A stretch of 40,551 bases of DNA from Terriglobia bacterium (GTDB lineage: Bacteria; Acidobacteriota; Terriglobia; Terriglobales; Acidobacteriaceae), in NCBI GenBank assembly GCA_021324365.1, contig JAJPJE010000072.1, positions 1 to 40,551 on the forward strand, in the 5' to 3' direction. Position numbers and translations under genes: made by a program. Positions 15,610-31,643 of this stretch are shown here, piece after piece. The first letter of the stretch is position 1. Each line of letters starts with the position of its first letter. Below the pieces are notes generated by a model that saw nothing but the letters and a program-made list of their open reading frames with translations, did not search any database and was not told the DNA's origin.

Positions 15610-15675
15610 GGAGTTCTTTCTCCTTCTGCGAATCGAGTCGCAGATACCGGTCGCGCCGGAATTCCAATCGGCATT

Positions 15676-15731
15676 GGTAGGAGTTATCAGCACCGGCTGC
15701 GGGCCGGGCGGTTATGGCGAACTCCATCGCC
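15676..15731 (-). ncRNA. Fluoride riboswitch (crcB motif)
   Basis: On the minus strand the RNA starts with the P1 hairpin GGCGATGGAGTTCGCC (15731-15716), then ATAACCGCC. A second stem follows (CGGCCCGCAGCCG), then TGCTGATAACTCC. The P1 loop GGAGTT (15725-15720) is an exact complement of the 3' AACTCC (15685-15680), the pseudoknot that defines this aptamer. Order, spacing and the CTGAT joining segment match the known crcB motif. It lies 67 nt upstream of the crcB start. An expression platform between it and the ribosome-binding site is not obvious. Confidence 0.93.
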
Positions 15732-15749
15732 GTAACAACGTGACATGAA

Positions 15750-28926: not shown

Positions 28927-29811
28927 CTACATCACCACCTTGTTCAGCGGATATTCCACGATGCCCTGGGCCTTCGCGGCTTTCAGCTTGGGGATGATAT
29001 CGCGGGCCGTGGTTTCTTCAATGATGGTATTGACCGCAACCCACTGCTCGCCGTTATTCGCAGCCAGTTCGGAAATCGTCGGGCGTTTCAGCGCAGGCAG
29101 AACCGCAATCACTGCAGGCAAATCTTCTTTCTTCACATTAAGCATCAGGCCAACGCGTCCCTGGGCCGCGATTGCGCCGCAAAGCATGAGAGCGAGATTC
29201 TGGATTTTCTCGCGCTTCCAGCCATCCCGCATCGAGTTCTGATTGGCGATCACCTGGGTGAAGGATTCCATCACTGTATCGATGATCCGCAGGCGATTGG
29301 CGCGAAGCGACGACCCGGTTTCGGTGACTTCCACAATCGCATCCGCCAGTACCGGCGGCTTTACCTCGGTTGCTCCCCAGGAAAAGTCGACCTGCACGTT
29401 GATGTTTTTCGCGGAGAAATATCTCTTTGTCGCATTTACCAGCTCCGTCGCGACCACGCAGCCCTCGAGATCTTCGGCACGCTGAAAACGCGAGTCTTCG
29501 GGAACCGCGAGTACCCACCGCACTTTGCCCCGGCTCTGCTTGGCGTAGACCAGGTCGGCAATGGCATCTACATCCAGCCCGCTTTCGACTACCCAGTCCA
29601 TCCCGGTGAGCCCGACGTCGATGACACCCTGCGCGACGTAGCGCGCCATTTCCTGCGCACGAATCAGCATGCATTCGATTTCGGGATCGTCAGTTGAAGG
29701 AAAGTAAGAGCGGCCGCTGACGTAGATTTTCCACCCCGCCTGCGCGAAGAGTGCGACGGTGGCATCCTGGAGCGAGCCTTTGGGAATACCAAGGCGTATC
29801 TTTTGCGACAT
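28927..29811 (-). CDS. hisG: HisG, long-form ATP phosphoribosyltransferase
   Basis: A 294-residue first enzyme of the pathway, condensing ATP with PRPP. The length and C-terminal ACT-like regulatory domain (about residues 218-290, [30 protein letters not shown]) mark the long form, which needs no HisZ and is usually feedback-inhibited by histidine. The catalytic domain shows [33 protein letters not shown] and the PRPP loop [18 protein letters not shown]. It abuts hisI by one shared base. Confidence 0.95.
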
Positions 29812-30143
29812 TATTGCGCCTCCATGGTCGGCAGTTCGCGCGTGAAGCAGGAGCGCGTGCCCTCATGGCAAACCAGGCCATCGCCCTCTACACGCACGCG
29901 GAAGAGCAATGCGTCCTGATCGCAGTCCGTGGAGGCGGAGACGAGACGCAGACGGTTGCCGCTGGTTTCACCCTTCATCCAGAGCTTCTGGCGGGTGCGG
30001 GAATAGAAGGTCACGTATCCGGAAGAGAAGGTGCGCTGGAGAGATTCGGGGTTGACGAAGCCGAGCATGAGAACGTCACCGTTCTCGGAATCCTGAACAA
30101 TGGCGGGAGCAAGCCCGCCCATCTTTTCGAAGTCGATATTCAT
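29811..30143 (-). CDS. hisI: HisI, phosphoribosyl-AMP cyclohydrolase
   Basis: A 110-residue monofunctional cyclohydrolase. Motifs are [38 protein letters not shown], the metal site [13 protein letters not shown], and CHEGTRSCF. No HisE pyrophosphatase domain is fused. The ATG at 30143 is chosen because GGGAGAAGG lies directly upstream. A longer frame to 30314 would translate the attenuator and leader region and is rejected. It is the first structural gene after the hisL attenuator. Confidence 0.94.
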
Positions 30144-30161
30144 TCCTTCTCCCTGAGAAAC

Positions 30162-30191
30162 AAAAAGCCCGCTGATTTCGTCAGCGGGCTT
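30162..30191 (-). terminator. his operon attenuator terminator
   Basis: Minus strand: AAGCCCGCTGA-CGAAA-TCAGCGGGCTT, an 11-bp perfect stem with a 5-nt loop followed by a T-rich run (TTTTTGTTT). It ends about 20 nt before the hisI ATG, inside the operon, so it must be conditional. The 5' arm (30180-30187 contains CCGCTGAC) can instead pair with GTCAGCGG in the leader ORF (30232-30239). Confidence 0.9.
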
Positions 30192-30217
30192 CGAATCTTG
30201 TTCTACTTTGCTTTTCG

Positions 30218-30289
30218 CTAGTAGCAGACCTCCGCTGACATGCTCGCCGCATGGTGATGGTGATGATGGCGATGGGTCAACGTGGTCAT
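30218..30289 (-). CDS. hisL: hisL, histidine leader peptide
   Basis: A 23-codon ORF on the minus strand, ATG at 30289 to TAG at 30218. It starts MTTLTHRHHHHHH and continues AASMSAEVCY. Seven of eight consecutive codons (30274-30251) are His. It lies upstream of an intrinsic terminator and hisI, the classical layout of a ribosome-mediated attenuator, comparable to enterobacterial hisL. The GTCAGCGG segment (30239-30232) lies after the His codons. A ribosome stalled for lack of His-tRNA would leave it free to pair with the terminator's 5' arm and block termination. A ribosome at the stop codon would cover it. The sequence also allows a GTTGAC (30281-30276) / GTCAGC pause hairpin. No Shine-Dalgarno is present, and the predicted transcript starts only a few bases before the ATG. 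Confidence 0.92.
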   Translation of the reverse strand: MTTLTHRHHHHHHAASMSAEVCY

Positions 30290-30300
30290 TGCGAAAGGGT

Positions 30301-30330
30301 AGAATAGAGGTCAACGCGCGCGGGTGTCAA
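30301..30330 (-). promoter_or_regulatory. his operon promoter
   Basis: Minus strand: a perfect -35 TTGACA (30330-30325), an 18-bp spacer, and -10 TATTCT (30306-30301). Transcription should start near 30294, only about 4-6 nt before the hisL ATG. A small palindrome TCAAA-TTG-TTTGA (30345-30333) sits immediately upstream of the -35. Confidence 0.75.
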
Positions 30331-30353
30331 TCTCAAACAATTTGAAAATTCTG

Positions 30354-31643
30354 CTACGACAGATCGGATTTTCCGATGGTGTTCGCCGGCAGGAGTTCCG
30401 GTTCATCTTCGTCGTGGTGCTCGGCTCCGCAAGCACACGATTCTTCGGCCCACCGTATCGATTCCAGGTAGGCGAGCGAAAGATCGCGTTCCGTCAATTT
30501 CCACGCTCCGGCGGCATTGCGACAGGACTGCCATTCGCAGCGTTCATACTGTTCCGCGATGTGCAGCAGTTGCCCGATCGCGTTGCTACCGCCTGTCAAT
30601 CCTGCTTTGAGATCGGAAGACAAAGGAAGTTGTTCGAGGATCAAGGGCAGTGGAAGCGCAAGCACGGCATCGAAACGGGAAAGCATGCCCGCAAAGAAGG
30701 CATCTCCGGCAGAAACCTCAGTCAGCGGCGAGAGGATTTCACAAAATCGCGCTCGCGCCAGGCAATCGGCAATCACTTCGGGAGGTTGTCCGTTAGCGGC
30801 GACGCCGACCGCACTCACCATCGCCCACTTGCGAAATTCGCGTTCGCCCAGCAGCATGACCGCGTGCCGAATCGAGGTGATGCGATCGCGAAAACCAAAA
30901 GTAACGGAGTTCAGTCGGCGCAGCAGTCGGTAGCTCAGTGAGGGCTCCGATTTCACGATTCTCTCAATCGCGATGAGATCGAACTGTGGCTGATTCAGCG
31001 CTGCGAACAGTCGGATGTGATTGCCTTGATTGGGAGGTATCTCGCGAGCCTCGAGCATTGCGGGCCGACAGAAATAATATCCCTGGAAGTATTTGTACCC
31101 CTCAGACAACGCCGAGCGAAATTCTTCGGCAGTTTCTACCTTTTCGGCAAGTAGCGTAGTCCGGTACCGTGCAGACACCCGCAATATTTCGGCGCGCTGC
31201 TCGGGTGAGATGATCTGCAGGTCGACCTTCAGGATGTTGGCAATTTCGACAAGCGGCTCCCATGCAGGAGAGGGAAGGAAGTCATCGAGTGCAAGCTGGT
31301 ATCCAATCTCTTTCGCTCGCTGGCAGGCTGCGATCACCTCTGCGTCGGGAGAGATGTTCTCCAATACTTCCAGCACCGTGAGATCCTGCGGGAGAATCGT
31401 GTACAGGCCGCCGATGAGCACTTCGCGCGTGCAGTTGAAGAAAGCCTTCCGCCCCCGGCACAGGTTTTCGAGCCCCAGCAGAAGCGAGCTGTCGAGCATG
31501 TGTTGTGACGCCGCGGAGCTGTCTCCCGAGAAGTAGTTTGCCGGCCCACAGCGAAATAGCAGTTCATAGGCATAGAGATTTCGGCCGCGATCGTAGATGG
31601 GCTGGCGAGCGAGAAAGCGAGTTGGCGCCTGAGAGCAGTTCAC
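30354..31643 (-). CDS. EAL-like / HDOD two-domain signalling protein
   Basis: A 429-residue cytoplasmic protein of the YuxH/CdgJ type. Residues about 5-200 are an EAL-like domain starting FLARQPIYDRGRNLYAYELLFR. The catalytic EAL is replaced by ELL, and other phosphodiesterase motifs are eroded (LALDDF retained), so c-di-GMP hydrolysis is unlikely. Residues about 205-400 are an HDOD domain (IVKSEPSLSYRLLRRLNS, ITSIRHAVMLLGEREFRKWAM), which lacks HD phosphohydrolase residues and usually mediates protein interactions in motility or stress signalling. The start is a GTG at 31643 without a clear Shine-Dalgarno. The stop lies 24 bp before the his -35 box. Confidence 0.9.
   Translation of the reverse strand: MNCSQAPTRFLARQPIYDRGRNLYAYELLFRCGPANYFSGDSSAASQHMLDSSLLLGLENLCRGRKAFFNCTREVLIGGLYTILPQDLTVLEVLENISPDAEVIAACQRAKEIGYQLALDDFLPSPAWEPLVEIANILKVDLQIISPEQRAEILRVSARYRTTLLAEKVETAEEFRSALSEGYKYFQGYYFCRPAMLEAREIPPNQGNHIRLFAALNQPQFDLIAIERIVKSEPSLSYRLLRRLNSVTFGFRDRITSIRHAVMLLGEREFRKWAMVSAVGVAANGQPPEVIADCLARARFCEILSPLTEVSAGDAFFAGMLSRFDAVLALPLPLILEQLPLSSDLKAGLTGGSNAIGQLLHIAEQYERCEWQSCRNAAGAWKLTERDLSLAYLESIRWAEESCACGAEHHDEDEPELLPANTIGKSDLS

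Follow-up and report, generated by a model that had tools for sequence, protein, structure and literature searches.

A putative ribosome-mediated histidine attenuator with a probably leaderless leader peptide upstream of hisI in the family Acidobacteriaceae

The window, i.e. the whole stretch of 40,551 nucleotides that was analyzed, comes from an assembly of 4.44 Mb in 125 contigs and carries on its minus strand a histidine operon in the order hisI-hisG-hisD-hisC-hisB-hisH-hisF-hisA, with a putative leader directly before hisI (Table 1). The acidobacterial host suggested by the initial annotation was borne out by the closest named relatives of hisI, which are from Acidobacteriaceae (the list includes Terracidiphilus gabretensis, Granulicella, Edaphobacter, Acidipila rosea, Acidicapsa and Terriglobus roseus). 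When hisG, hisD, hisC, hisF and hisA of the window were used as queries, counterparts were found in relatives, and hisG follows hisI in close succession in 95 of the 96 loci of the window's family that have a hisG match. Elsewhere in the window, a fluoride riboswitch (RF01734, 50 bits; 15671-15740, minus strand) lies upstream of a CrcB-like ORF (15693-15235, named by eye), which is an ordinary arrangement.

Table 1. Features of the putative his leader, the his operon and the upstream gene in the window
Feature	Position	Strand	Basis or remark
EAL/HDOD-like gene 5' of the leader	31643-30354	-	named by eye
-35 hexamer TTGACA	30325-30330	-	scores, with the -10 box, 10/12 against the consensus
-10 hexamer TATTCT	30301-30306	-	11 nt 5' of the leader ATG; 18 nt from the -35 hexamer
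Leader ORF (hisL-like), 23 codons, MTTLTHRHHHHHHAASMSAEVCY + stop	30218-30289	-	sequence
Regulatory His codons, codons 6-13 (H R H H H H H H), 7 His in 8	30251-30274	-	sequence; run conserved in the family
Strand 1, CGTTGAC	30276-30282	-	pairs with GTCAGCG (30239-30233) in the minimum-energy, ribosome-free fold
Small hairpin, CATGC 30253-30249 (last His codon and next bases) with GCATG 30243-30239	30239-30253	-	covariation
Antiterminator strand 2, ATGTCAGCGG	30232-30241	-	exact 8-nt core 30239-30232
Intrinsic terminator hairpin, strands 3 and 4	30164-30192	-	12 pairs, loop of 5
Strand 3 core, CCGCTGAC	30187-30180	-	inside the terminator hairpin
T-run of the terminator	30166-30162	-	sequence
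hisI (phosphoribosyl-AMP cyclohydrolase), first gene of the operon	29811-30143	-	PF01502 match; protein search
hisG	29811-28927	-	PF01634
hisD	28619-27372	-	ORF; name read from translation
hisC	27379-26285	-	ORF; name read from translation
hisB	26269-25682	-	ORF; name read from translation
hisH	25685-25089	-	ORF; name read from translation
hisF	25095-24295	-	ORF; name read from translation
hisA	24173-23499	-	ORF; name read from translation

The initial annotation had described a 23-codon ORF with seven His codons in eight positions, a terminator with a T-run before hisI, and an exact 8-nt complement that would form a competing antiterminator. The ORF was recovered base for base, the terminator hairpin and its T-run are present, and the two 8-nt stretches, GTCAGCGG (30239-30232) and CCGCTGAC (30187-30180), are exact reverse complements. 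Folding of the terminator stretch of 56 nt gave -21.2 kcal/mol (z of -4.55), and the 141-nt leader as a whole folded with a z of -4.70, none of 200 shuffled sequences being equally good. The hexamers upstream of the ORF point to a sigma-70-like promoter for the leader.

Of 150 genomes from the window's family, 111 gave a match in a HisI search, and 90 of these loci, including that of the window, were examined after the weakest and the fragmentary ones had been left out. A His-rich ORF stands before hisI in all 90 loci, with four to eight His per eight codons, as against none of 90 for antisense stretches before hisI containing at least four His in eight. Among 144 control stretches (500 nt upstream of leuA, trpE and ilvB, both strands, 72 loci; ORFs of 6-60 codons), this density was reached once; seven of the 72 control loci are cut by contig ends, so that a few control stretches fall inside a gene. 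Under a loose rule that allowed three start codons and accepted some ORFs with only four His in eight, a His-rich leader was also found within 600 nt in 77 of 80 named loci, which share genomes with the 90 family loci and are thus not an independent set; the three without a leader belong to one acidobacterial metagenome-assembled genome, a Prevotella and a Hymenobacter.

When 396 genomes of the phylum were scanned with the covariance model R1, matches were obtained in 42 of the 44 members of the window's family. Half of these 42 genomes (21) lay outside the 90 loci examined, from which the loci for building the model had come. The leader RNA is present in all 42 members that have hisI and hisG and in neither of the two that lack them; relatives with hisI and no leader, which the initial annotation had named as a refuting observation, were not found in the family. 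The two members concerned, G210 and G273, are perhaps histidine auxotrophs, as neither hisI nor hisG was matched in their nearly complete genomes. By script, a hairpin followed by a T-run was detected before hisI in 87 of the 90 family loci (at -15 kcal/mol or stronger in 85), ending at a median of 51 nt 5' of the hisI start. A loosely conserved ATCA..AGATTC-like stretch was also seen in the consensus of the family loci between the leader stop and the terminator (alignment A1, columns ~165-185).

The covariation test that had been suggested for the terminator and antiterminator stems was carried out on an alignment of 89 of the 90 family leaders (L112 was left out, and L100 is short at the 3' end), and both stems covary. 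The antiterminator, which joins the leader tail to the 5' arm of the terminator, is paired in 92.4% of 865 cells, whereas sliding the partners by 1-3 columns leaves only 28.6-43.6% paired; two-sided changes occur at four of its ten pairs, in 36 cells versus 8.2 on shuffling. The clearest of these pairs is U-A 48 times, C-G 14 times, U-G 13 times, G-C once and other 12 times, and a typical compensation at this position is the change of Ser TCG to Pro CCG together with that of the terminator arm from GA to GG. For the terminator, pairing holds in 91.8% of 879 cells, and two-sided cells number 72, versus 32.8 on shuffling. When changes were counted along a tree, a weak one built from HisI only, antiterminator pair 116:224 showed four same-branch changes, three of which keep the pairing and one of which ends unpaired; pairs 118:221 and 117:223 showed one each, and terminator pair 215:248 showed seven, while pairs taken off register averaged 1.0 and did not exceed 4. 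The tree-aware support for covariation is modest to weak. RNAalifold with the 89 rows recovered only the lower stem of the terminator.

What appears to be a third conserved element, additional to those of the initial annotation, is the small hairpin at the last His codon, in which CAC..GTG or CAT..ATG pairs and the partner is the start of strand 2. It is paired in 87.6% of 443 cells, with 32 two-sided cells versus 14.2 on shuffling; the number of its pairs with a two-sided change (three) was not above that of the shuffles, 385 of 500 of which reach three, and sliding by +2 still leaves 69.9% paired. The initial annotation had further proposed a pause stem of 30281-30276 with 30239-30234, which is present in the fold of the window but whose register is not conserved: its columns pair in just 18-60 of 84-89 family sequences per position, and the 1:2 stem was rejected as a conserved element in that register. 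Strand 2 pairs with upstream sequence in 87 of 88 folds, again in no conserved register, a count made without a shuffled control.

These data bear on other explanations of the locus. The leader might encode a functional His-rich, metal-binding peptide, with RNA folding secondary, and hexahistidine stretches bind metals. A leader peptide acting in trans also has a precedent, peTrpL of Sinorhizobium meliloti, described in PMC7298713. However, the non-His residues vary widely among leaders, the most constant ones (V/M, S/P and A) coincide with strand 2 and are explained by RNA pairing, and in the loci that were read the leaders stand before his genes, so that we regard this explanation as very improbable. 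Hardly any likelihood is left for the hairpin being a mere terminator of the EAL/HDOD-like gene with an incidental His run: this gene has the same orientation, with 162 nt between its end and the hairpin, but the promoter and the leader ORF stand between the two, the leader tail and the terminator covary, and an ORF-length test puts the gene 5' of the leader in the opposite orientation at 18 of 98 family loci (same in 49, unclear in 31). Equally slight is the likelihood of attenuation at hisI translation by sequestration of the ribosome-binding site, since, although translational attenuators exist (PMC9413887), the covariation sits in the terminator stem, and the strong GC-rich stem with an immediate T-run, at a median of 51 nt before hisI, leaves room for a ribosome site.

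The exclusive pairing was then considered as a switch in a folding model, which covered the RNA up to strand 4 in 88 of the 90 family leaders, with an assumed ribosome footprint reaching from 18 nt 5' to 12 nt 3' of the first base of the A-site codon and the stalled state taken as the mean over up to four His codons. For the window, the modeled P(2:3) was 0.00 with no ribosome, 0.80 with the ribosome stalled at His and 0.00 with the ribosome at the stop codon. Among the relatives, P(2:3) in the stalled state was at least 0.5 in 78 of 88, the antiterminator being weak in the other 10; with the ribosome at the stop it was below 0.5 in 57 of 88 and at least 0.5 in 31, in which a tail of 14-23 nt separates strand 2 from the stop, and with no ribosome it was at least 0.5 in 49 of 88. 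The textbook picture of attenuation would thus fit the window and the majority of relatives in the model, whereas about a third, with the longer tail, do not fit it at the stop. At equilibrium, the terminator wins in every modeled state (median P(3:4) of 0.87), and therefore the switch would have to be kinetic, decided during transcription.

The computation gives the anatomy, the conservation, the covariation of both mutually exclusive stems and, for the window, a switch between the stalled and the stop states. With these, the element is very probably a ribosome-mediated transcription attenuator of the hisIGDCBHFA operon, as far as sequence and modeling can indicate. This is also how the initial annotation had read it, a reading that gains support from the conservation and from the covariation of terminator and antiterminator, and under which we infer read-through on histidine starvation. 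Transcription would start at, or a few nucleotides before, the leader ATG, and the ribosome would probably load at the 5' end of the RNA without a Shine-Dalgarno sequence. When charged tRNA-His is ample, the ribosome would pass the His codons and reach the stop codon, where strand 2 would be covered or folded back into the leader; strand 3 would then pair with strand 4 and transcription would end before hisI. When charged tRNA-His is scarce, the ribosome would stall on the His codons, masking strand 1 and opening the small hairpin, and strand 2 would capture strand 3 ahead of the synthesis of strand 4, so that no terminator would form and the operon would be transcribed.

The start of the leader is a point that is absent from the initial annotation. 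PMC3160421 lists Acidobacteria among the groups with leaderless genes and recognizes such genes by a TA-like signal some 12 bp ahead of the start codon. The leader has this character, with a -10 box about 10-12 nt before its start and no Shine-Dalgarno sequence. A promoter scoring at least 9/12 was found in 79 of the 90 family members versus 5.8% of shuffles, and 77 of the 79 start 34-45 nt before the leader start; with a score of at least 8.5 (80 of 90), the -10 box lies a median of 10 nt from the start, with gaps of 6-23 nt overall and of 6-14 nt in 73 of 80. Shine-Dalgarno pairing (-4.5 kcal/mol or stronger) before the leader was seen in 10 of 90 versus 12 of 90 after shuffling; around the hisI start it was seen in 53 of 90, in a longer stretch that is not like for like with the leader count. 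Among named leaders, 57 of 68 have the promoter, with gaps of 4-15, and nine of 68 a Shine-Dalgarno-like stretch. The start about 10 nt after the -10 box and the lack of a Shine-Dalgarno sequence suggest that translation of the leader is probably leaderless or nearly so, and in the window a 5' UTR of about 3-5 nt would be expected. We suggest tentatively, as a possibility worth considering, that Acidobacteriota have a distinct class of leaderless his attenuators, in which the mRNA would begin at or next to the leader ATG, a ribosome would bind the RNA end immediately on its emergence from the polymerase, and one arm of a regulatory hairpin would consist of the His codons. In other families, similar promoter spacing was seen before several leaders, some of them before hisG, and before others no promoter was recognized there; given the similar spacing before hisI in several families and some hisG genes, leaderless leaders of this kind may have arisen early in the phylum.

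In Enterobacteria, the first gene of the his operon is hisG. The operon in the window differs in starting with hisI, and its leader is below the cut-off of the Rfam class RF00514 (His_leader), with 23.3 bits versus a gathering cut-off of 49; no match above the cut-off was obtained in the window or in the whole genome. Below-threshold matches to amino-acid leaders fall at the same strand and place for Trp_leader (26.5 bits) and Thr_leader (26.5 bits) as for His_leader, and these count in favor of an attenuator here. A T-box riboswitch was also considered and was rejected, with no match in the window at the gathering threshold nor among the 23 matches up to an E of 10 in 30140-30360. What is shared with the enterobacterial hisL attenuator, as outlined in PMC9413887, is the leader peptide with His codons, the terminator before the first his gene and the mutually exclusive antiterminator. 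By contrast with it, the acidobacterial leader probably has a very short 5' UTR or none and lacks a Shine-Dalgarno sequence, and it has the extra hairpin at the last His codon and no conserved 1:2 register. PMC9413887 also reports, as comparative-genomic predictions, His-leader attenuators in the Bacillus cereus group, Peptostreptococcaceae/Eubacteriales and Erysipelotrichales; these Firmicutes leaders follow the same logic but are from another phylum and have 3-5 His codons in a row. The main text of PMC9413887 does not contain the string 'Acidobact'. Leaderless leader peptides are described for trpL of S. meliloti (PMC7298713) and, from RNA-seq data, for leuL, trpL, ilvL, thrL and metL of Streptomyces lividans (PMC8079986). 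Their ORF starts at or adjoining the transcription start with no 5' UTR, as is predicted, from promoter spacing only, for the acidobacterial leader, but they concern other amino acids and phyla.

No earlier account of a his attenuator in Acidobacteriota was found in the open literature searched, a body that mostly excludes subscription papers. A comparative study of attenuation across bacteria was reportedly made by the Lyubetsky group in about 2010. Passages of PMC2965389 (2010) mention predicted acidobacterial attenuators with almost no associated functions, and passages of PMC4833913 mention peaks of leader-gene spacing in Acidobacteria and name no his case there. We thus regard the element as a known mechanism in a phylum for which no description was found, its own features being the probable leaderless start and the additional conserved hairpin. 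Ribosome-mediated histidine attenuation would hereby be extended to a large phylum, with his regulation predicted in cultured Terriglobus, Granulicella and Edaphobacter; the leader is one that escapes a standard RNA library at its cut-off. The probably leaderless attenuators also make up a large and conserved collection for testing how ribosome loading at the 5' end is coupled to termination.

As for the spread in the phylum, a first survey of the regions upstream of hisI in 30 genomes (L001-L030) gave the leader in none. In families outside the window's, no His-rich ORF precedes hisI in any of the 13 loci where hisI comes after hisF, and judging from these other loci, we think that the absence in L001-L030 is misleading where hisI is not the first gene. 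At hisI-first loci outside the window's family that were not picked by a model match, the leader is present in 12 of 14. Two of these 12 leaders have only four His in eight codons, and one (L316) is from family f2, which belongs to the same class as the window. Of the two loci without a His-rich ORF, one offers only 269 nt of upstream sequence. By name, leaders before hisI belong to four Bryobacteraceae/Bryobacterales records (4-5 His in eight) and one Ca. Acidiferrales record. Where hisG comes first, the leader was found in all 12 loci of family f22 among L271-L300 and in none of the loci of other families (0/16 among L271-L300 and 0/20 among L301-L340), counts that leave out rows without a hisG query match or with the start off the stretch (2/30 and 12/40). 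This distribution suggests that presence or absence of the leader follows lineage. A few further hisG-first leaders were found through model matches.

The tested leaders outside the window's family, many of which were chosen through model matches, have a hairpin and T-run in 20 of 21 hisI-first cases and a leader-tail complement (shuffle p of at most 0.05) in 8 of 21; the same complement was seen in one of the 10 hisG-first leaders tested. Leaders of the f22 type have only weak hairpins (-7 to -14 kcal/mol) and are candidate attenuators at most. Those before hisG in f22 (e.g. L282, L287 and L298) have a different flavor: several end with the residues RVN, and some keep the usual promoter spacing.

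Similar leaders for leuA, trpE and ilvB were found in none of 24 loci each (25 relatives each; seven of the 72 loci cut by contig ends), in a search whose leuA-like matches include paralogues and in which the gene may not be the first of its operon at some loci. With the amino acid switched to His, these filters recover 88 of the 90 hisI leaders. No His-rich ORF accompanies the weak second model matches in G249, G023 and G261 or the matches in G131 and G216. Finally, the weak second match to the leader model in G337, at L415 (G337:C7, 1201-1323, minus strand), contains an ORF of 40 residues that begins like a signal peptide and is rich in His toward its end, and which sits upstream of a frame resembling, by eye, the carbamoyl-phosphate synthase small chain.
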